Program-made: the position numbers and the translations under genes | Source: Paraglaciecola sp. | GTDB taxonomy: Bacteria; Pseudomonadota; Gammaproteobacteria; Enterobacterales; Alteromonadaceae | Assembly (NCBI RefSeq): GCF_030730205.1 | Contig: NZ_JANQVQ010000202.1 | Coordinates: forward strand, 1-41,398 | Length of the DNA: 41,398 nt | Direction: 5' to 3' | The notes under the pieces: model-generated | Seen by the model: the letters and a program-made list of their open reading frames with translations, nothing else | What the model was told of the DNA's origin: nothing | Database searches by the model: none | Part shown: one piece after another, positions 30,138 to 41,398 of the stretch | Position numbering within the stretch: the stretch's first letter is position 1 | Layout: each line of letters starts with the position of its first letter

Positions 30138-32306
30138 TTACCTCCGCACTTTATTTTTATTCTCATAGCTCGCCAATAATTGACTTAACTCTTTATTGGC
30201 AGGCCAACGACTTAATGAGGTTTTTAAAACGTTTATTGCGGTATTTGTGTGCATCTGATTATCCAAAGCAATGGCATACACATAAGCGTGGATGAATTGA
30301 GATTCTGGGCTTTCGTAAGCATTTCTTAGATATACTAAGGCCTTCTGATAATCTTTTTGCCTTATGTAAAAAAGCCCGAGAGAATGATTAACATCAGGGT
30401 TATTAGCGTCAATTGTCAATGCTTCCTGCAAATATTGCCTCCCTTCCTCATCGCGCTTTACTTGACGATAAAAGTCGGCTATCTGTAAAAAAGACGGTAT
30501 ATAGCTTCGCTCGATTTCAATGGCATTCAAGTAGCCTTGTTCAGCTGATTTAAGATTTCCAAGATTGAATTCTAGACTCGCCAAGTTCATTTGCGTTATC
30601 GGCGAGTCAGCATTTAAACCCAACATATAGCGATATTCAACCAGCAGATCTTTGAGTATAAGTCGTTCTTGTTGAGTCATAATTGGCAGAGCATCAACTA
30701 ACACCCGAGCAATTGAAAATCGTACGATGGGATTACTTTCTCCCAAGCTATTTTTTAATACTTGCCAGCGGTCTGCCGGATGCAGAACTTCTAAAGCTTC
30801 AACCGCCCCCCGTCTTATTAGGGAGTCAGAATTAGATAATTGTTTAATGGTTAATTCAACACTAGCCTGGCTAGGTTGCTTGCTGCTTTCAAGTAACATT
30901 GATGCTTTGCGGATCGCACTATCACCACCTTGAGTATAACCCTTTTCAAGATACGTTTTTATCGCCTGATCCACTTTTGCATCGCCGGATACAATTAACT
31001 TATGAACCCTATCCCAGTCTTTAACCTTAGCTTTTTGCCATTTATTTTTAGCTTCAGCTACCCAGAAAGCATCCTCTTTCTCATGACAAGCTAAGCAAGC
31101 ATTTGGCTCTTCGGGATCAGAAGAAAACTGGAAAGTTGGAATAGAGAAACTATGGTCCCGTCTTCCATCTACGCCCATGTAAACTTTATCGGGCATATGG
31201 CAATTAATGCACATTGAGCCTTCACTGCCTTGCTCATGCCTGTGGTGATCTGGTGAATTAAAAGTTGAAGCCTGATGACACTGCAGACATAAACCATTAC
31301 CCTCAATTTTGACTTTGCCGCTGTGGGCATTGTGACAATTTGAGCATGTCACCCCGGCTTGATACATTTTGCTTTGTAAAAAAGAGCCTAATACAAATAC
31401 TTCTTCTTTAATTAAACCATTTTGATGATACAGCGGCTCTCTGACCCACTCAATTCGGTATTTATCAAAAAAACCTCCTTTGTTCGACTCGTCGGTAAGT
31501 GGCGAACGTAGAGAATGACATTTACCACACATATCAATTTCGGTATCAAGCGGTTTTCCATGTGACTCTGCTATAGTTTTTCCTGGATTGAAACTCCATA
31601 GGTTTTGAGTTGGTAAAGATTGTGTAAACCCTGAATTCGATTTATCTAATTGTTTCGCATTAGCTAGCTCAATATGTCGCTGACCTGGACCATGACAACT
31701 TTCACAAGCAACATTAATTTCACTATAAGTCGTATTATAACTGTTCGTTGTGAGATCAAAATTTTTCTGAAGATTTGTCGAATGACATTCTGCACAACGC
31801 CCATTCCAATTTTGAAAATGTCGCTGCCAAAAAAACGGATGTTTGGGGGTTATATTTTCAGTAGGCTGAAGATGATACCAATGTTGCCCCCCTTCTTTTT
31901 CACTACGCGAATCCCAAGCGATATTAAAAGCCTGTAGTTTTCCATCCCCAATATTCAATAAATATTGTTGTAAAGGAAAATAACCGAACGTGTAATCAAC
32001 AGTGAAAATCGCACGCTTTCCTTTTGAATCAGTCGTCTCAACGTAAAATTTATTATCTGTTTTGAAAAAACGAGTTTTAATATTGTGAAATTCAACCTCT
32101 ACATTGTTAAAGTCACCCAGTACCGACTCGTCTGTCGGTATCTGCATAGACTTATAATGATCTGACGCTTCCCAAGCGGAAAATTCAGCTTCGTGACATG
32201 ATTGGCAGGTTTTAGAGCCAACAAAATCAACTTGTTCTGCGTTAATATGACTCACAAATATCAACAATATAACGAGTAAGGCAACCCGCTTTGATTTTTT
32301 ATACAT
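30138..32306 (-). CDS. Periplasmic octaheme c-type cytochrome with HEAT-like and TPR repeats
   Basis: 722 residues with a signal peptide (about 1-23, I-N-A/E). Eight C-x-x-C-H haem-binding motifs occur in the first 400 residues: C-Q-S-C-H, C-A-E-C-H, C-E-S-C-H, C-G-K-C-H, C-S-N-C-H, C-L-Q-C-H, C-I-N-C-H and C-L-A-C-H. The layout resembles cytochrome c554/doubled-C-x-x-C-H proteins. Residues about 445-545 form HEAT-like helical repeats (S-L-I-R-R-G-A-V-E-A-L and similar), and about 560-715 are tetratricopeptide repeats, including N-P-D-V-N-H-S-L-G-L-F-Y-I-R-Q-K-D-Y. It should be exported and haem-loaded in the periplasm, where the repeat region may hold a partner. No electron donor or oxidoreductase lies beside it. 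Redox partner and substrate are unknown. Confidence 0.9.
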   Translation of the reverse strand: MYKKSKRVALLVILLIFVSHINAEQVDFVGSKTCQSCHEAEFSAWEASDHYKSMQIPTDESVLGDFNNVEVEFHNIKTRFFKTDNKFYVETTDSKGKRAIFTVDYTFGYFPLQQYLLNIGDGKLQAFNIAWDSRSEKEGGQHWYHLQPTENITPKHPFFWQRHFQNWNGRCAECHSTNLQKNFDLTTNSYNTTYSEINVACESCHGPGQRHIELANAKQLDKSNSGFTQSLPTQNLWSFNPGKTIAESHGKPLDTEIDMCGKCHSLRSPLTDESNKGGFFDKYRIEWVREPLYHQNGLIKEEVFVLGSFLQSKMYQAGVTCSNCHNAHSGKVKIEGNGLCLQCHQASTFNSPDHHRHEQGSEGSMCINCHMPDKVYMGVDGRRDHSFSIPTFQFSSDPEEPNACLACHEKEDAFWVAEAKNKWQKAKVKDWDRVHKLIVSGDAKVDQAIKTYLEKGYTQGGDSAIRKASMLLESSKQPSQASVELTIKQLSNSDSLIRRGAVEALEVLHPADRWQVLKNSLGESNPIVRFSIARVLVDALPIMTQQERLILKDLLVEYRYMLGLNADSPITQMNLASLEFNLGNLKSAEQGYLNAIEIERSYIPSFLQIADFYRQVKRDEEGRQYLQEALTIDANNPDVNHSLGLFYIRQKDYQKALVYLRNAYESPESQFIHAYVYAIALDNQMHTNTAINVLKTSLSRWPANKELSQLLASYENKNKVRR

Positions 32307-32847: not shown

Positions 32848-35800
32848 TTAATATTTATATAAAAAACCCATATAGAAAGTACGCCCGCTAGTAGTAGAGT
32901 TATATGGGCGATCTGTCGAGTCACTGTACTGCTCTTCTCTTTGATTAGTAAGGTTTTGTGCCTCTAAGCTGAATTGCCACTGCTGACTCAACTGCAAGCT
33001 AAAACTCGCATCAATATAAAAGGTGGAGTGAAAACCCGTTTCATCTTCGTCTTGTAAAGTCATTGGATTGACTTGATGGATATAATTGTCTCGATAGGAT
33101 GCTGAAATTCGCCCACTCAGGATTTTGTCGTCGTAATATAATGTTACCGCAGCGGTTTTTTTCGATAAATAAGGTAACGCCTTTTGAAACAAAAACTCAG
33201 CGTCGTTATTGTAGTAATTCTTCTTTCCATCCGTATAGTTAAAGTGGCCAATTAGGCCGACGTGTTGCCATTTAGATGTTAAATACGACCACTCGTATCG
33301 CAGCATGGTTTCAAAGCCAAACAAAGAAACAGATTCAGCATTTTGATTAGTGACCAAAGTAATAACTGAGTTGTCGGATAGATTGCTAGATTGCCATTTG
33401 TTTTCTAGTCCCGTTTCAGCGAATGTTAATGAGCTTGCTTGTGGTGCAATAAAATCATCAATCGATTTGTAGAAAGGCGTTACTGAAAATGATACGTGAT
33501 CTCTTGCTTCCCATTCTAACGAGACGTCAATATTCGTCGAGGCATAGGGTTTTAAGTTTGGATTGGAGGCATACATAACTTGGTCGGTAGGGTCATATTC
33601 AGTATAGCCCTTCAAAGCGCTAAGTGAAGGACTGGCTAAATTACGAGACAAACTGAATCTAGCTGTATAGCTTAACGATGGTCGCCAAACCACATTCACA
33701 CTAGGCAACCAATTTACATGTTTGTTGCTATGCTGAAGACGAGAATATTCATTCACAACCGTTGTTGTTTCTTGTTGGTAACGACTGCCAGCGACTAGTG
33801 TAAACTGCTTGTATTGCCAGTTTAATGTAAAAAAAGCAGATGATTTTTGTTCTGTTAAGTCGTCATCAAACTGTTCAATCAAAGCAACATTATTCTTTAG
33901 TGAATAGGGATCAATTCCAAAGTGCTGAATGGCATCGTGGGTTTGCAAACCTAACCAACTGACTTTGGGATGAGAATCAACTAACTGGATATATTCCATG
34001 GGTAAGGATTGTGCTGTTGTTGACCATGTATCTAACAATAAATTAGTTTGATATATAGATAATGTTTGAGTGTCAAAGGTCGTGTGTTCAGCTCCCCATT
34101 GCCATAACAGGTTAGGTGAGAATTGATATTTTAAGGCTATTTTGCCGTGCTGATAGCGGGTAGTCGCAAAATATTCTTCAAGGTCAATTTCTCGCATTGT
34201 CCATAAGTCTCGTTGAGTTAGATCACTGCCATATTGAATATCCGCAAAAAACCGGTCAGCGCGGTAATCGATACTAATATCTGACATGCCTTGGGTATAA
34301 ATCTTATTACTGGTGGGAATGTCAAAGTCAGATTTTTCTGATCCTAACAGCAACGCCAATGACCATTGTTCCGATAAGCTAAAGGTACTGTTGAATACCG
34401 CTTGTTCATAGCTTGTATCGGTACGCTGGGCTCGGCTTTCCGTTGCCACTCTGGCATTATTAAAAGCGCTGTAAACTAGCTCGTTATTGGCATTTAACTG
34501 GGCATCAACAAATTCGGTGATGCTTGAGATTATAGGCGTTGATTGCTCGCCTCGTGGATATAGGTGAAACTCGTTCCTTGTTGCGCCTAACACAGCGTGC
34601 AAAATGTCTAAACGAGCTGAAGACTTTTCACTTTGGTATTCCAAGGCCAAGTTTAGCCCCCGTCTTTGTTGTTCGCTTTGCCATAAAGAATAACGATTAC
34701 CGCGCGGCACAATGACTTCATTATTGGCGAAGCTTTGTTGCACCTCGGCAGATAAAGCGTCTAATGTAATTCCGTTAGGCGTAATAGCCCGCCATCTAAT
34801 TGTATTTGCCCCTCGTTCCTCTACAAACCTTTCGCCATACGAGGCGGATAATAGCGCTCCCCAATTACCCCATGTATTCGAGATTAAACCTGTTATACGC
34901 GGCGCGACATTATCAGAATATTGGTTCTTGCCAAGTTGAGGCGCGAGTACAAATTGAAAGCCTTTTTGCGCAAAGGGACGATTAGTTTGCAGTGCTAATG
35001 TACCCGCTAACCCGCCAGTAGTTTGTTCCGCACTATAAGATTTTAGCACTTGCGCTTGACTGAATAATTCAGATGAAAACACATTGAAATCTAATGAACG
35101 ATCATGTTGTTTTTGCACACGGCTGTCCATCGGCGAATCATTATTTGCCAGCACAGGCATGCCATTTATGGTAACTAAGGTAAAATCAGGAGACGTACCT
35201 CGAAGCGAAACTTGGCGACCTTCACCTGCTTCTCTGGTGATCACCACGCCTGGAATTCTTTGCAATGATTCCGCCATATTAATATCAGGATAATTCGCCA
35301 TATCATCAGATACTAAAGCATCAGACACCGCCACTGTGTGCGTTTTTAGCTGTTTCGCTTTATCTAACGAAGCCCGTAGGCCGGTCACTATAATTTCATC
35401 GATACTGCTTTTAGCTTTGTTCGGGACATTTTTGACGGCTCGAGATATTTCAATCCCAAACGGAGTGATAGTGCAATTCCATGGGCTTTGCTGTGTCATT
35501 ATTTCAAGTGCGGCTGACAGACTATATAAGCCTGTGATATTGATTTTATTTTCGGTTATATCGCTAACGCCCTTGATCACAAATGGGACTTGGTAAACTA
35601 AGGATATGTGTTTTATTGCCGCTTCAATAGAGCTGTCTTGTATCTGAATATATTGTTTTTTTTCAGTGTTTGTCTTTAAATACTGAGTGTTGTTAGCCAT
35701 GGCTAAGGGCAAACAAAAAAACAAACTCAGTATTAACCCGGTTATCGGAACATAACAACGGTATTGCCGATGATGGTATGTACGTGGAATGGCGAAACGA

Positions 35801-35889
35801 AATCCTAGCAATAAAGCATTTAAAAAACCGAATTCAAATTGAATTAAGTTGTTTTTACTAATTGCTAAGCAGGATTTTATCGGCTTCAT
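32848..35889 (-). CDS. TonB-dependent receptor with N-terminal STN signalling domain (FecA type)
   Basis: About 1013 residues from the ATG at 35889, which overlaps the end of the anti-sigma gene by 32 bases; the frame also opens at a TTG (35919). The signal segment (G-L-I-L-S-L-F-F-C-L-P-L-A-M-A) is preceded by an unusually long 45-residue leader, so the true start could be internal. Then come an STN domain (about 75-140: I-Q-D-S-S-I-E-A-A-I-K-H-I), a plug (about 160-290: M-A-E-S-L-Q-R-I-P-G-V-V-I-T-R-E-A-G-E-G) and a barrel ending in T-F-Y-M-G-F-L-Y-K-Y with the terminal aromatic signature. The STN domain talks to FecR-type anti-sigma factors, matching the genes just upstream. The substrate is probably an organic phosphorus compound given the Pho box and phosphoesterase. 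Confidence 0.93.
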   Translation of the reverse strand: MKPIKSCLAISKNNLIQFEFGFLNALLLGFRFAIPRTYHHRQYRCYVPITGLILSLFFCLPLAMANNTQYLKTNTEKKQYIQIQDSSIEAAIKHISLVYQVPFVIKGVSDITENKINITGLYSLSAALEIMTQQSPWNCTITPFGIEISRAVKNVPNKAKSSIDEIIVTGLRASLDKAKQLKTHTVAVSDALVSDDMANYPDINMAESLQRIPGVVITREAGEGRQVSLRGTSPDFTLVTINGMPVLANNDSPMDSRVQKQHDRSLDFNVFSSELFSQAQVLKSYSAEQTTGGLAGTLALQTNRPFAQKGFQFVLAPQLGKNQYSDNVAPRITGLISNTWGNWGALLSASYGERFVEERGANTIRWRAITPNGITLDALSAEVQQSFANNEVIVPRGNRYSLWQSEQQRRGLNLALEYQSEKSSARLDILHAVLGATRNEFHLYPRGEQSTPIISSITEFVDAQLNANNELVYSAFNNARVATESRAQRTDTSYEQAVFNSTFSLSEQWSLALLLGSEKSDFDIPTSNKIYTQGMSDISIDYRADRFFADIQYGSDLTQRDLWTMREIDLEEYFATTRYQHGKIALKYQFSPNLLWQWGAEHTTFDTQTLSIYQTNLLLDTWSTTAQSLPMEYIQLVDSHPKVSWLGLQTHDAIQHFGIDPYSLKNNVALIEQFDDDLTEQKSSAFFTLNWQYKQFTLVAGSRYQQETTTVVNEYSRLQHSNKHVNWLPSVNVVWRPSLSYTARFSLSRNLASPSLSALKGYTEYDPTDQVMYASNPNLKPYASTNIDVSLEWEARDHVSFSVTPFYKSIDDFIAPQASSLTFAETGLENKWQSSNLSDNSVITLVTNQNAESVSLFGFETMLRYEWSYLTSKWQHVGLIGHFNYTDGKKNYYNNDAEFLFQKALPYLSKKTAAVTLYYDDKILSGRISASYRDNYIHQVNPMTLQDEDETGFHSTFYIDASFSLQLSQQWQFSLEAQNLTNQREEQYSDSTDRPYNSTTSGRTFYMGFLYKY

Positions 35890-36859
35890 AGGCCACGGTG
35901 AATTGGTGCGCACTCGCAATGAGAGCTAATGACTGTTCGGCCTTATCAAGTGGGAAACGTCCACTAATTTTGCGATTAAGTAGTTCTTGAGTCGTTATTT
36001 CAACAGGCTGTCCAATGTAACGTTGCATATGCGCCACTACGTCTTGCAGCGGTTGTTGTTCAACTTCCAACCAACCACTGCGCCAAACAGGTAACATTGG
36101 TAGCGGTTTGGTTGGCAATTTACTGGCTTGTCCATTTTCGAGCAGAAGTTGTTCACCTTTGGTTAGAATGAATACATGATCAGCGTTTATTTGAACACGT
36201 CCCTCATAAACAGTAACCAGAGTGCGTTGATTGGTATGGTCTACATCAAATGCGGTACCTAGCACCCGTATTTGTATGTCCCCTACATCAATAACAAACG
36301 GACGTTTTTTATCTTTGGCAACATCAAAAAATATTTGACCTTGATCCATTAGCGCATATCGAGACGTACCGGTTTGCTCCACATTTAGTTGGCTATCCGC
36401 ATTCAAATGAACTTGTGTACCATCTTGCAAAACTTGAGAGAAACGAGCACCGACTGGGGCTTGAATTTGCTTTTGATATATTGCTTGGGGAACAGCGGCT
36501 ATTGGCGACGAATCATCGGTCGTATTTTGCGAAAACATAAAAAAAGCGGTAACAAGTGCGATACAGCAGAAGCTCGCAGCGATGTTGCTTGGATTGAATT
36601 GAAAGAAGCTAAAAACATGAGGTTTATCGCTATTCTGGGGATTATTCCTGGCTGTATTTTTATCGTTCTTAGTATTTTTTAGGCTAACATTCATTGCCGC
36701 AGTCAATTCTGATGACTGCATTACTTGACTGATTTTGCGGTAAGCTTCAGCATTTTCGGGCGTGGTTAACCAGCGCTCAAATTTAACTGTTTGCTCGGCG
36801 TTAAGAGCGTCTTGTTGATCAAACCAGTCTGCGGCTTGTTCTAATGTATCTTTATTCAT
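35858..36859 (-). CDS. FecR-family anti-sigma factor / cell-surface signal transducer
   Basis: 333 residues. The N-terminal cytoplasmic helical domain (about 5-50: A-A-D-W-F-D-Q-Q-D, later F-E-R-W-L-T-T-P-E-N-A-E-A-Y) is the DUF4880-type sigma-binding region. One transmembrane helix follows (about 93-112, I-A-A-S-F-C-C-I-A-L-V). The periplasmic FecR domain (about 130-225) contains G-T-A-F-D-V and V-T-V-Y-E-G-R-V-Q-I. The C-terminal segment (about 255-330) has the STN-like fold that contacts the receptor's signalling domain (L-N-R-K-I-S-G-R-F-P-L-D). It holds or activates the ECF sigma factor encoded 84 bases upstream, depending on the ligand state of the receptor encoded immediately downstream, whose gene overlaps its 3' end. 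The three genes form one operon. Confidence 0.94.
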   Translation of the reverse strand: MNKDTLEQAADWFDQQDALNAEQTVKFERWLTTPENAEAYRKISQVMQSSELTAAMNVSLKNTKNDKNTARNNPQNSDKPHVFSFFQFNPSNIAASFCCIALVTAFFMFSQNTTDDSSPIAAVPQAIYQKQIQAPVGARFSQVLQDGTQVHLNADSQLNVEQTGTSRYALMDQGQIFFDVAKDKKRPFVIDVGDIQIRVLGTAFDVDHTNQRTLVTVYEGRVQINADHVFILTKGEQLLLENGQASKLPTKPLPMLPVWRSGWLEVEQQPLQDVVAHMQRYIGQPVEITTQELLNRKISGRFPLDKAEQSLALIASAHQFTVAYEADKILLSN

Positions 36860-36943
36860 GTACTGTTCTCAATGTACCAGATGATTTTGCATCAATTTCT
36901 TTATTAAACGTTTAAAAATTAGGAAAGGTGACAATTTTTATGC

Positions 36944-37444
36944 TTATTGCCAATCATTTTTTTCCGCGAATAAAGCAATATCTACCATGGCACGATTAAT
37001 GTGTTTTTTTACCGCTTCTAACGACAATCCCATCTCTGTTGCAATCACTTCTCGGCTCTTACCCTCCAGGCGTCGCATTTTAAAGACTTGTTGTCTTAAA
37101 GGTGGCATCTCATCTATAACCTTCGACAGTATTTTTACTTGTTCAAGTTTAATGAAATCATCTTCCAATTGCGGACCTTGTGTATGCTCGTCGACCATAT
37201 CAGATTGGCTTAGATGTTTTTTTTCCGTGCGCCAATGATCAAATAAAGCCGATTTAGCAACGGTAATTAAGTAAGCGAGCGGATTATCTAACTTTTGTTC
37301 TGAATCTTGTTTTTGATTATTTCGAATCGTTCGTAACATGGTTTCTTGCAGCACGTCATTGGTCACGTCAGCGTTTTGGGTTCGTGCTTGAACAAAAGTT
37401 CTGATTTTCGGCATCAGCTTAATGAAAGGATCGTTTTTTTTCAT
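36944..37444 (-). CDS. ECF-family RNA polymerase sigma factor (FecI type)
   Basis: 166 residues, the usual ECF size. Region 2 (about 10-80) includes D-V-L-Q-E-T-M-L-R-T-I-R-N and the -10-recognition stretch N-P-L-A-Y-L-I-T-V-A-K-S-A-L-F-D-H-W-R. Region 4 (about 105-160) includes L-P-P-type helix P-P-L-R-Q-Q-V-F-K-M-R-R-L-E-G-K-S-R and the helix-turn-helix I-A-T-E-M-G-L-S-L-E-A-V-K-K-H. It should direct RNA polymerase to the receptor promoter and possibly the divergent phosphoesterase gene when released by the FecR partner. The upstream region carries a PhoB box pointing at this gene, suggesting that phosphate starvation sets its level while the receptor-FecR pathway sets its activity. Start ATG has no strong binding site. 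Confidence 0.95.
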   Translation of the reverse strand: MKKNDPFIKLMPKIRTFVQARTQNADVTNDVLQETMLRTIRNNQKQDSEQKLDNPLAYLITVAKSALFDHWRTEKKHLSQSDMVDEHTQGPQLEDDFIKLEQVKILSKVIDEMPPLRQQVFKMRRLEGKSREVIATEMGLSLEAVKKHINRAMVDIALFAEKNDWQ

Positions 37445-37613
37445 AAGAATATTCGCTCGAACTTATAAAGTCGAAATACAAGGCTACCCTAACGTTATAT
37501 TTGGCGGCACCAATAACACTTTGAAAATTATCTAAAAATAAGACAAAGCTGTTCAGTGAAAATTTGCTAGTGAGACCAATTATTAGTCAGCATTACAACC
37601 ACGCGGGAGCGTT

Positions 37614-37619
37614 ACGATA
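37614..37619 (-). promoter_or_regulatory. Candidate -10 element paired with the PhoB box
   Basis: TATCGT on the minus strand (4/6 to TATAAT), separated from the PhoB box by ten bases, the spacing seen in the E. coli pstS promoter. The resulting leader to the sigma start would be about 160 bases. Confidence 0.5.
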
Positions 37620-37629
37620 CGGCTTGATT

Positions 37630-37647
37630 ATGACAATTTAGTGACAA
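37630..37647 (-). promoter_or_regulatory. PhoB box
   Basis: On the minus strand: TTGTCAC, four bases TAAA, TTGTCAT. This is the two-heptamer arrangement of the PhoB-binding site (consensus CTGTCAT, A/T-rich four-base spacer, CTGTCAT), with 6/7 matches in the second heptamer and 5/7 in the first. It points toward the ECF sigma gene. PhoB boxes replace the -35 element of sigma-70 promoters activated under phosphate limitation. The match and the spacing to the -10 element are seen; regulation is inferred. Confidence 0.7.
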
Positions 37648-37790
37648 AATAGCGTTGAAAAAATATATAAAAAATGCTGTCCCCTTCTTCATTTTAGCGC
37701 CGTCTTATGCGCAGAGAACCTTGATGAATATCGCCAACTTAAAGCCTGATATTCACAATGAAAATTACTTTTATTAATGAGGAAACCGCT

Positions 37791-40703
37791 ATGAAATTGA
37801 AACATTTCACACTAACGTTAGCCACCATGTGTGTGCTTAGCGCCTGTAATATCGGCGACGACAATGACGCCGAAGTGAGTGCACTGCAAGCACAAGTTGC
37901 ACAACTGCAAACCGAACTCGACAACATAGATACAGCAAATGATGCAGAAGTTGCTACGCTGAACGCCACGGTTGTAGCGATGCAAGCACAGATTGATACG
38001 ATGACAGCCGAGTTAGTGACCTTACAAGAAACATCTAGCAATGCCTCAACAAATGAAGATATTGCCGCTTTGAAGGCCGAAATTGCAACCCTGCAAACCA
38101 AGTTAGATGCGCTAACCGCACAAGCACCTGTTTTAGGCAGCAATGCCACCTCAGGCGCAAACGTCCTACCTGAGGATGCGGATAAAGTTTTACGCTTTGC
38201 TATTTTTCCAGATACTCAAGGCCGAGATGACGACAATATGTCTGTGTATGTTGATGTTGATAAAGACGGCAATACCTTGTCGATTAAAGAATACGTTGGT
38301 GTCGATTACAATGGCGATGGTTATTATGATGCTGGAACTAAAAGTCAGAATGATGCGGTTAAAGCCAATGATTGGGATGAAGATGGTATTAGCTACTTAG
38401 TTAACGTTGAAGACCCTTTTCACCCGTATATTGAAGTAGACAGTGACGGCGAGCCCATAGTAGTCGCACCTGAAGATCGTAAAGACTTTGGTCCTGACTG
38501 GAAAGTGCTACCTTTACCTCTAGTAGAAGCCGTTACCGATAAAATGATTGAGCTAAATGTCGATTTGGTTTTAGCCACCGGCGACATTACCGAATACCGT
38601 GCTGAATCTGACTATGTGCAGTGGATGGAAAAAGTGGCAGGGCCACTAAGAGAAGCTGGAGTAAGTGTTTTCCCTGCAAGAGGAAATCACGAAATCGTAA
38701 ATGGTAGAAACTGGCCTGCGTGGTTCACTAACGAACAAGAGTGGGAACGTCAGTCAGTCAATAATGTTTACAACGGTATTAACCCTTATGAAGGTTACGA
38801 GCAGGTTGATTTTGACCAAGGTTATAAGCTGTATCAAGCATACACAGGCTCGCTAGTCCGTGAACATTTAGATAATGGTAAAGCGGTAGGTTTTCCTGGT
38901 GCTGAAGACTTGGTTTATTATTTTATTGAAGATAAAACCATGTTTATTGCATTAGATTTCTACTTTTCAGAGCTGTATAGCAGTGCCTATAGAGGTACAT
39001 GGACAATTTTAAGAGAATGGTTAAAAGAAGTCATTACCGCCAATGCCGCAGACGTTGACCATATTGTCGCTTTTGGGCATGAACCGCTATCAACTAAAAA
39101 GCGTCCACAAACTTATCAGGTCGAAATTTACGATGCCTATGTAGCAGACCGAATTGCTTTGCAAAAAGCAAAAGATGTGGCTCAAGCGACTTTTGATAAT
39201 GCCATTGCAAACAACGAATCTGCTGAAGAAATTGCGGTTTATAGCAATGTTTTAGAGACAGCAAACAGCGCATACGAAGAACTAGAAGAGCCAAGTCTGA
39301 ATGGTTACGATATAGGTCAATTGGGCTACCTGAAATTGCAAGATGAAGCCGAACCAGGATTGGCTGCAGACATATTAAACTTGTTCAACAATTACCAAGT
39401 TACATATATTGCAGGGCATGATCACCAATATGCTCGCAGTTTAATTCATCCGACATCAGAAGATAAAGATACCGCTAATGGATTCACCCAAATCATTGGT
39501 GGTAACGCATCATGGAAGGCCTATGAAGATCTATATGGTATGCACGATGAACACGAAACGGGCTTATTCATCAATAACTTCTACGACACAATTACAGGTG
39601 GAAATTTAACTAACAGTCAAGGTACTAAATACGCAAGTGTGAGTTCTGACCTTGGCAATGGTATTTCATTTGTTATTGTTGAAGTGAATGGCCGTCAAAT
39701 TACCACTAAGGCCTATTACGCAGACCATAACTTAACTGAAGTGGATATGAATTTGGGCGCGCATTATGATTACGATAGTAACGCTTGGTGCACCTATTCT
39801 GGCGATTACATGGTAGCAGGCGCGAGCACGACCAAAACATGTAACCAAGTTAAGTGGCAAGTTTTAGATGAAAATACCCGCACCACAGATGCGACCGTAC
39901 GAGTTGTTGCACCTGATCAAAACTACTATGCACACTCAGAAGCAAAGACAGAAGATGGTTATATTGGTTCTCAAGCCACTATCATTGATGGCTACAACCT
40001 TACGTACAATAGCTCATATGCCGCTTCCGTTGGTGAAGTGGAGCGCTTACGCGAACTATTCTCTATGAGCTGGTTTATCGATCAGGATGCTACCACCCTA
40101 TCGGATGTATTATTCCTAAGCGGAAATCAAACGCAAGAAGGTTCATACTTTAATCAATATGGGGACCTAGTTGCGCCTATCGTCGACGTAGATGCAGGTG
40201 TTTTAGCCTTAGGTGAATCTGCTTCGTTAACCTATGTTAACCAAAACGGTGAGCAAGTTAACAATCCAACTCACACGACACGTGATGGCATATTTGTCAA
40301 AGGAACCGATATTGAAGCATCGTTAAACCCATCTCTTGCTAACGGTAACCCGAGCGGCAATGACGCTAACTGGAATGGTCGTTACCTTGCAGATGGTTTA
40401 GATTTTGCCGACGCTATGACATTAGTTATGACCGCACCTGAAGGATATACCTTAACGGATTTAACCATCGGCCGTTTCGATGAAGCAACCCAATCATGGG
40501 TCCCGGCGTTTAGTGATGAATGTTATATCGAGAGTGGTTATTCAGATCATTATTCTACTTATTACAGACTCACAGACCAGCACCCAGAAGGCGGCTTTCA
40601 AGTGCCTAATTGCCAACAACGTTATTGGGGCTATGTTAAAGATAGCAACACAATTTGGGGTTTTGTGCACACAGACGGTAAATTTGCAGTCATAGAAAAG
40701 TAA
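37791..40703 (+). CDS. Lipoprotein metallophosphoesterase (calcineurin-like) with N-terminal coiled coil
   Basis: 970 residues from the ATG at 37791, preceded by G-A-G-G-A-A at seven bases; an in-frame ATG at 37758 lacks one. Lipobox L-S-A-C at about 16-19. Residues about 25-110 are alanine-, leucine- and glutamine-rich heptads (A-L-Q-A-Q-V-A-Q-L-Q-T-E-L), a coiled coil that may form a stalk. The metallophosphoesterase domain shows D141 (F-P-D-T-Q), G-D265-I-T-E (usual G-D-x-x-D), G-N299-H300-E, G-H430-E and G-H543-D-H545, a complete dinuclear-metal set. An acidic insert rich in D-x-D-x-D/N-G (about 150-230) resembles calcium-binding loops, and an alanine-rich helix pair (about 445-500) interrupts the domain. 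The C-terminal 350 residues are unassigned. It likely releases phosphate from an organic ester at the cell surface. Confidence 0.88.
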   Translation: MKLKHFTLTLATMCVLSACNIGDDNDAEVSALQAQVAQLQTELDNIDTANDAEVATLNATVVAMQAQIDTMTAELVTLQETSSNASTNEDIAALKAEIATLQTKLDALTAQAPVLGSNATSGANVLPEDADKVLRFAIFPDTQGRDDDNMSVYVDVDKDGNTLSIKEYVGVDYNGDGYYDAGTKSQNDAVKANDWDEDGISYLVNVEDPFHPYIEVDSDGEPIVVAPEDRKDFGPDWKVLPLPLVEAVTDKMIELNVDLVLATGDITEYRAESDYVQWMEKVAGPLREAGVSVFPARGNHEIVNGRNWPAWFTNEQEWERQSVNNVYNGINPYEGYEQVDFDQGYKLYQAYTGSLVREHLDNGKAVGFPGAEDLVYYFIEDKTMFIALDFYFSELYSSAYRGTWTILREWLKEVITANAADVDHIVAFGHEPLSTKKRPQTYQVEIYDAYVADRIALQKAKDVAQATFDNAIANNESAEEIAVYSNVLETANSAYEELEEPSLNGYDIGQLGYLKLQDEAEPGLAADILNLFNNYQVTYIAGHDHQYARSLIHPTSEDKDTANGFTQIIGGNASWKAYEDLYGMHDEHETGLFINNFYDTITGGNLTNSQGTKYASVSSDLGNGISFVIVEVNGRQITTKAYYADHNLTEVDMNLGAHYDYDSNAWCTYSGDYMVAGASTTKTCNQVKWQVLDENTRTTDATVRVVAPDQNYYAHSEAKTEDGYIGSQATIIDGYNLTYNSSYAASVGEVERLRELFSMSWFIDQDATTLSDVLFLSGNQTQEGSYFNQYGDLVAPIVDVDAGVLALGESASLTYVNQNGEQVNNPTHTTRDGIFVKGTDIEASLNPSLANGNPSGNDANWNGRYLADGLDFADAMTLVMTAPEGYTLTDLTIGRFDEATQSWVPAFSDECYIESGYSDHYSTYYRLTDQHPEGGFQVPNCQQRYWGYVKDSNTIWGFVHTDGKFAVIEK

Positions 40704-41007: not shown

Positions 41008-41398
41008 TGGTGGTCAGCCATTATTGCATACAGTAAAGCCGAACCAAAAAAATACTCAGACGGTGAAGGGCTATACTTTTGCGTCCGCAAACAGGGCTCG
41101 CCTTATTGGATGATCCGCTACACCACAGCCAAAGGAAGGCGAGAAGCAACCTTGGGGCAATTTCCTTTAATGTCATTGGCAGACGCAATAATTGCCGCTG
41201 CTTATTTTCGAAAAGAAGTACGTTACGGCATAGATCCTCTTCTGGAAAAACAGAAAATCGAGTTACCTAACTTTGAAACCGTGGATCAACTGTTCCATGG
41301 CTGGTATCGAACCGATCTGAGTCGACGACTAAAGCACCCAAAAATTCCGTATCGGGTTTACACCAAAGACATAAGCCCAGTCATTGGCATTAAGTGTA
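41008..41398 (+). CDS. Tyrosine recombinase (P4-type integrase), 5' part, cut by window end
   Basis: The frame encodes K-K-Y-S-D-G-E-G-L-Y-F-C-V, then S-P-Y-W-M-I-R-Y, R-E-A-T-L-G-Q-F-P-L-M-S-L-A-D-A and Y-G-I-D-P-L-L-E: the N-terminal DUF4102 arm-binding domain of P4-like integrases, followed by the start of the SAM-like core-binding domain. The catalytic domain with R-H-R-Y residues would lie beyond the window. The open frame begins after a TAG at 41005-41007 and has no ATG or GTG before the conserved block; an overlapping frame starts with ATG at 40982 and would need a frameshift to join. So the start is either non-canonical or damaged, and the gene may be inactive. It indicates a genomic island or plasmid-integrated element to the right. 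Confidence 0.8.

Follow-up and report, generated by a model that had tools for sequence, protein, structure and literature searches.

Organization of the locus

At the right end of a 41,398-base contig from the draft genome of Paraglaciecola sp. (NZ_JANQVQ010000202.1 of assembly GCF_030730205.1; the whole contig is called the window below), genes for an extracytoplasmic function (ECF) sigma factor, a FecR-type anti-sigma factor, and a TonB-dependent receptor lie on the minus strand, and a gene for a metallophosphoesterase lipoprotein, here called PE, is transcribed divergently on the plus strand (Table 1). Surface signalling by FecI-FecR-FecA (FecIRA) systems, in which ligand-triggered proteolysis of the anti-sigma factor frees the sigma factor, is best known for iron. 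The module described here is most probably a phosphate-gated cell-surface signalling system for the scavenging of organic phosphorus, as judged from its genes and promoter motifs and from those of related loci (L-numbers below denote the compared loci, and G-numbers the genomes).

An earlier note on this DNA had named the series sigma factor, FecR, and STN-domain receptor. The sigma factor, FecR, and the barrel and plug of the receptor are recognized by Pfam, and an STN-like region is suggested by alignment to homologues: Pfam leaves STN uncalled in the window receptor at a limit of E 10, where HMMER filters drop weak matches, and calls it in the homologous receptors of L020 (25.4 bits, under the cut-off of 28.4), L110, L073, and L025, with which the N-terminus of the window receptor can be aligned at 18–33% identity. 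Most of the receptor gene lies beyond the coordinates that the note had given. A TTG start further upstream, at 35919, is also possible, and with either start fecR overlaps the receptor gene.

The divergent gene does encode a lipoprotein phosphoesterase, as had been claimed, and its start is probably at 37791 rather than 37758. The protein has the lipobox LSAC, a long N-terminal helix or predicted coiled coil, a calcineurin-like domain, and a large C-terminal part, and the motifs GD, GNHE, H430, and GHDH are invariant across 11 aligned sequences. The AlphaFold model of PE is weak (mean pLDDT 60.6). Its best match among solved structures is Lmo2642 (3e-4), followed by the weaker GpdQ (0.035) and Rv0805 (0.05), and these matches are a hint towards phosphodiesters, no more.

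Table 1. Elements of the module and their positions in the window
Feature	Position	Strand	Evidence and remarks
TonB-dependent receptor, STN-like N-terminal region	32848-35886	-	Barrel 8e-32 and Plug 1e-13 (Pfam); TIGR01782 8.1e-130
FecR-type anti-sigma factor	35858-36859	-	PF04773 1.7e-21; next gene downstream of sigma
TGTCACC, candidate ECF -10 of an internal fecR-receptor promoter	36927-36933	-	Also in L019 and L020
ECF sigma factor, phosphoesterase-linked clade	36944-37444	-	PF08281 3e-13, PF04542 3e-8 (regions 2 and 4)
TATCGT, sigma70-like -10 of the sigma operon	37614-37619	-	10 nt past the 7-4-7 box
PhoB box	37626-37647	-	TTGTCAC-TAAA-TTGTCAT-AATC; two direct 7-mers 11 bp apart, between divergent promoters
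Candidate ECF promoter of PE	37657-37684	+	AT-rich -35 region (GAAAAA); -10 TGTCCCC at 37678-37684
PE, metallophosphoesterase lipoprotein	37791-40703	+	970 aa; PF00149 5.5e-9, residues 247-438

The PhoB box and its conservation

The PhoB box, with its -10 element ten bases further on, is present as the earlier note had described it, and faces the sigma gene, not PE. It was scored with an 18-mer matrix trained on 17 boxes from 17 loci (11 phoB and six pst) in the promoters of relatives; these were drawn from 30 phoB/pst loci (21 and nine, respectively), with repeats, loci without a match, and weak or misplaced matches excluded. Because the training boxes were located with the generally known consensus TGTCA-N6-TGTCA, with up to two mismatches allowed, the matrix leans to that consensus. 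The box reaches 14.8 bits and ranks first among the ~82,800 positions of the two strands of the window, a score that equals the lowest leave-one-out score of the training boxes (range 14.8–25.0). The claim for the box is carried by its conservation and fixed geometry, not by the score alone. A single phoB gene was found in the genome of the window.

A scan of genome contigs with an alignment of PE gave 101 pattern matches, 11 of which encode a relative of PE; among whole genomes of the family, such a relative is present in five of 147. Three orthologous loci that have the complete gene arrangement retain the box (L019, 19.8 bits; L020, 15.0; L022, 15.5), as do L107 and L109. In L020, from another Paraglaciecola genome (G089), the intergenic region has diverged elsewhere, and the box and its surroundings still align. 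L023 retains both a box of 12.9 bits and TGTCCCC upstream of PE, and no sigma, FecR, or receptor gene was found on its 9,957-base contig. Conservation of the box among orthologues, which the note had expected, is thus observed, and it extends across genera. When the window is included, 10 of the 12 upstream regions of PE genes reach at least 9 bits; L024 (-1.1) and L029 (6.1) are below.

A sigma gene of the same kind occurs within the locus for seven of the 11 PE relatives (L019, L020, L021, L022, L024, L025, and L029), and these seven loci show at least four gene orders. In L029, for example, the receptor, PE, and a phosphatidylinositol-specific phospholipase C (PI-PLC) are encoded in one row, and the region upstream of the receptor gene has both a box (8.9 bits) and TGTCCCC. 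The PE relatives without a sigma gene in the locus are L023, L026, L027, and L028. In the last three, TAACAT, TACCTT, and TACCTT, respectively, stand exactly 10 nt past a box in the region upstream of PE (the L027 box being the second-best there, at 10.1 bits), and these genes look as if they were controlled directly by the Pho system, without a second key. The PE relative of L028 (2183-6200) is in two parts with two other open reading frames, perhaps for a transposase, between them.

A sigma clade with phosphoesterase partners

Relatives of the sigma factor were collected at E≤1e-28. A first alignment gave matches in five of 394 genomes of the order, and a richer one in 56 of 395 genomes of the family (67 rows); in the class, the richer alignment matched only the genome of the window (1/369). 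The 45 sigma-anchored loci compared here consist of five regions plus 40 taken from the 67 rows in list order, not randomly. In a tree of 42 sigma factors, a single group supported at 100/99 contains 30 module sigmas, and 11 other FecI-type sigmas from five genomes fall outside it; the 31st module sigma, that of L145, is among the latter.

By blastp at 1e-6, a gene for PE, PI-PLC, or another metallophosphoesterase (MPE) occurs in 28 of the 45 loci, with weak PI-PLC matches in L142 (4e-8) and L144 (3e-8), and 36 loci are positive if a CehA-like protein, X503, is also counted. These sister modules have as their enzyme neighbour either a PI-PLC, a metallophosphoesterase of another kind, or a CehA-like metallohydrolase. 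Several of them hold PI-PLC (PF16670), a PF00149 enzyme, and the ECF sigma together, and the window holds the ECF sigma and the PF00149 enzyme. No PI-PLC was found among the window proteins scanned, and a single partial match above the cut-off (41.8 bits, model positions 236–307) was found elsewhere in the genome. Across the family, the clade sigma is present in 31 of the 34 genomes with PI-PLC-C1 versus 25 of the 361 others, a count that takes two 395-genome sets as identical; for 21 of 36 PI-PLC genes, the distance to a clade sigma is no more than 12 kb.

A CehA/McbA-like lipoprotein occurs with a sigma subgroup (L076, L121, L123, L124, L126, L127, L134, and L137); neither box nor TGTCCCC was found in the four upstream regions of its genes that were scored, a box does precede the upstream receptor gene in L076 (14.3 bits) and L123 (11.8 bits). 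Genes of the NPP1/NLP (necrosis-inducing) family recur beside the clade sigma (L120:424-1209, L122:7454-9158, L132:8268-9056, and L146:5200-6024).

A composite promoter signature

Clustering of the loci at 70% identity of their sigma factors gave 31 clusters. Genes were scored only where the gap upstream spans 60 bases or more, which left 27 of these clusters, and 292 control genes from the same loci were scored with them; the controls include one PI-PLC-X gene and any porin. A Pho score of at least 9 bits is found before the sigma genes in 19 of the 27 clusters versus 31 of the 292 controls (p=1.6e-11); among the more distant sigma genes of the clade, most, and not all, have the box. The same score is reached upstream of PI-PLC (10/11), PE (4/5), MPE (5/7), the second receptor (11/17), and fecR (2/8), and by 4–7% of dinucleotide shuffles of the same regions. 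Because divergent genes share intergenic regions or a box and related genomes are not independent, these counts overlap and the p-values are indicative only.

The note had also looked to an ECF promoter motif in front of the phosphoesterase gene. A candidate for such a motif, TGTCCCC, is present 30 nt from the box in the window and recurs before the enzyme genes and fecR: upstream of PI-PLC in 8/11, MPE in 5/7, PE in 3/5, and fecR in 4/8, compared with the second receptor in 4/17, sigma in 2/27, and controls in 3/292. All three positive controls are NPP1/NLP genes in module loci, and are perhaps members of the regulon; in total, three of five NPP1/NLP genes have the motif upstream. The variant pattern TGTC[CA]CC lies near 20 of 47 fecR genes of the module set, counted without the 60-base gap filter, versus four of 292 control genes, counted with it. 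In the same genome as the window, the loose pattern GAAAA-N14-18-TGTCCCC occurs at six sites (that of the window and five others) versus two for the control.

In the 18 clusters with a forward box of at least 9 bits before sigma, TAnnnT stands exactly 10 nt past the box in 61%, and never at offsets 2–9 or 11–14. The sigma genes of L123, L127, and L073 have a TGTCC element near the box instead of TAnnnT, as if the sigma factor were driving its own gene. In the comparison of spacings, where only the best box of at least 8.5 bits per region was used, 32 of 36 distances from the end of the box to TGTCCCC fall into a few classes (9, 20, 27–28, and 36–38 in the same orientation; 9, 11, 22–23, and 30 in the opposite orientation), the four outliers being -128, -101, -44, and 61. 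The spacing of 30 is common to the window, L019, L107, L108, and L109. Spacing is kept by descent among related genomes, yet some classes are common to different enzyme families.

In five genomes, 11 other ECF-FecR modules have box scores of 0.7–6.7 and no TGTC[CA]CC upstream of sigma or between sigma and fecR; in contrast, five of the seven clade members in the same genomes score 10.6–19.8, and four of the seven have the motif in the sigma-fecR gap.

Genomic neighbourhood

Genes for GH78, GH88, and GH43 glycoside hydrolases and for sulfatases lie near the module both in the window (3140-29659) and in Pseudoalteromonas A601 (L025:327-8696), where the contig additionally holds a Rep3-type initiator gene. 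Between these polysaccharide genes and the module, the window encodes a protein of 722 aa that has matches to multihaem cytochromes and to TPR (30138-32306). On the other side, a partial gene for a probable integrase (Arm-DNA-bind_3, 9.5e-8; 41110-41397) adjoins the module at the contig end. PE is 95 and 91% identical to its relatives in two Aliiglaciecola genomes versus 80% to that of Paraglaciecola chathamensis, which belongs to the genus of the window; because PE is closer to the former, its horizontal transfer is suggested.

Weighing the alternatives

Several observations weigh against a phosphate-gated module. Bare half-site pairs are not rare, and counting them does not set the site apart from chance: the pattern TGTCAY-N5-TGTCAY occurs five times in the genome versus four times for its reversed control. 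In eight of the 27 sigma clusters, no box reaches 9 bits, and the PE gene of L024 has neither box nor TGTCCCC upstream. A FecR homologue was not found within the loci L021, L024, and L029, and the receptor of the last has no Pfam STN. As for the enzymes, eight of the 36 positive loci depend on X503 alone, which scores 60 bits against the CehA/McbA metallohydrolase model, under its cut-off of 80. Nine of the 45 loci (L075, L114, L122, L125, L138, L139, L140, L141, and L145) have no enzyme gene in the stretch examined; a PI-PLC gene lies 10 kb from L114 and 32 kb from L075, L122 has two NPP1/NLP genes, and L125 encodes a PAP2 protein. Finally, control by the clade sigma does not seem to extend to distant PI-PLC genes: TGTCCCC is found at none of the 12 whose clade sigma is over 12 kb away or on a different contig, and the composite promoter therefore marks module-linked genes, not PI-PLC genes generally. 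Among these 12 genes, TGTCACC occurs at one, at -308, and boxes of at least 9 bits at three. In genomes without a sigma match, one of three PI-PLC genes (in G922) has both box and TGTCCCC.

A simpler arrangement would be a one-key Pho regulon, in which PhoB and sigma70 drive both the sigma operon and PE, the targets of the ECF sigma are different genes, and TGTCCCC is a coincidence. The position of the box between both genes fits this, as do the PE relatives of L026–L028, which look directly Pho-driven without a sigma gene in the locus. We consider it unlikely, given that the window box faces the sigma gene and the PE side has TGTCCCC after the box, and given that the same motif is found again upstream of further enzyme families, with a few spacings predominating, and in only three of 292 controls, all of them NLP genes.

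The composition of the module would also suit an ordinary iron or siderophore FecIRA system in which the Pho box is a chance match, and pairs of bare half-sites do arise by chance. The box, however, is conserved and enriched across the clade and missing from the 11 other FecI-type modules, and no siderophore-synthesis family was found among the window proteins scanned, which leaves the iron reading highly improbable. Sensing of carbohydrates for the neighbouring polysaccharide locus has in its favour the glycoside hydrolase and sulfatase genes near the module in the window and L025, a GH113 gene near PE in L018, and a receptor that fits TIGR01782. On the contrary, the recurrent partners are phosphoesterases, and no glycoside hydrolase was found among the neighbours scanned in L015 and L016, a comparison that is partial, with the neighbours in 40 other loci unscanned for carbohydrate genes; we regard this reading as quite improbable.

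Comparison with known systems

The module shares with the FecI-FecR-FecA system an ECF sigma, a FecR anti-sigma factor, and a TonB receptor that is probably a signalling one (PMC9249621). That system is Fur-regulated, whereas the window module has a PhoB box and lies beside phosphoesterases. A precedent for the logic is PUMA3 (VreA-VreI-VreR) of Pseudomonas aeruginosa, in which, according to the available text, PhoB is needed both to make the sigma factor VreI and for its action at target promoters, which have a pho box upstream of the -35 element (PMC4971064). A PhoB box at the sigma/anti-sigma operon and at the ECF targets is the likeness, present here as sequence motifs only. As far as PUMA3 is described there, the two differ in several respects: (i) VreA is without a barrel and the gene order is A-I-R, whereas the window receptor has a full barrel and the order is sigma-fecR-receptor; (ii) the PUMA3 regulon comprises secretion systems and secreted proteins, whereas the neighbour in the window is a phosphoesterase; and (iii) unlike in PUMA3, one box lies between two divergent promoters.

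In gene content, the module resembles PUSI of Flavobacterium johnsoniae, a locus with an ECF sigma, PI-PLC, a metallophosphoesterase (another phosphodiesterase), and SusCD (PMC8115612). The PUSI genes are listed there as induced by phosphate depletion, the ECF sigma by transcript, with a protein change that was not significant. PUSI differs in its Bacteroidetes SusCD pair, and the term "pho box" does not occur in that paper; no SusD family was found among the window proteins scanned, in which small open reading frames were covered in part only. No description of the module in the Alteromonadaceae was found in a literature search of titles and abstract openings, with subscription papers mostly outside it. 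The earlier note had pointed to no standard named system with this exact composition; none was found in that literature search, and the precedent of PUMA3 for the logic and the similar gene content of PUSI, as far as the available texts describe them, have to be added. The module appears to put a PUMA3-like logic to work on phosphoesterases, and no description of its sigma clade was found among the titles and abstract openings searched.

A two-key model and its implications

Gene content, the conserved box, its distance from the -10 element, and the recurrent TGTCCCC are direct observations on the DNA, and from the sequence we infer a phosphate response and ligand gating. When phosphate is short, phosphorylated PhoB would occupy the box and drive the sigma-fecR-receptor operon with housekeeping sigma70, as the conserved promoter suggests. 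By analogy with its family, FecR would hold back the sigma factor. Its release would follow the binding of a phosphorus-containing ligand to the receptor, with the STN region signalling via FecR. Judging from the conserved motifs, the freed ECF sigma, together with PhoB on the same box, would then transcribe PE from TGTCCCC and would also boost fecR and the receptor gene from TGTCACC. PE, probably at the cell surface, would hydrolyse phosphoesters, most likely phosphodiesters, and the products may in turn serve as the ligand or be taken up by way of the receptor. PhoB binding, the use of sigma70 at the sigma promoter, and the recognition of TGTCCCC by the ECF sigma are predicted steps of this scheme. 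The earlier note had proposed two layers, with phosphate starvation setting the supply of the sigma factor and ligand sensing its activity. This layering is supported by the sequence comparisons, with the correction that PhoB probably acts at the PE promoter as well, and in substance the note is supported.

More generally, there is about an even chance that an ECF sigma clade found in the Alteromonadaceae and certain related bacteria serves solely to sense organophosphates and acts on composite promoters only when PhoB takes part. The sigma factor would be made from promoters in which a sigma70 -10 follows a Pho box after 10 nt, and the scavenging enzymes from those in which TGTCCCC and a Pho box are set apart by one of a few fixed distances. 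NLPs of plant pathogens are reported to bind inositol-phosphorylceramide lipids, according to the available text of PMC6743777. Because some of the loci add NPP1/NLP proteins, members of a family with this reported binding, the inositol phospholipids found in eukaryotic membranes may plausibly serve as substrate.

The module set supplies candidate enzymes and receptors, and a sequence signature for finding more. If the model is true, there would be a phosphorus-dedicated branch of the FecIRA systems in which PhoB and an ECF sigma read the same promoters at set distances. This would offer a testable model of combinatorial control by a sigma factor and an activator, and a route by which marine bacteria may reach the phosphorus in organic molecules.

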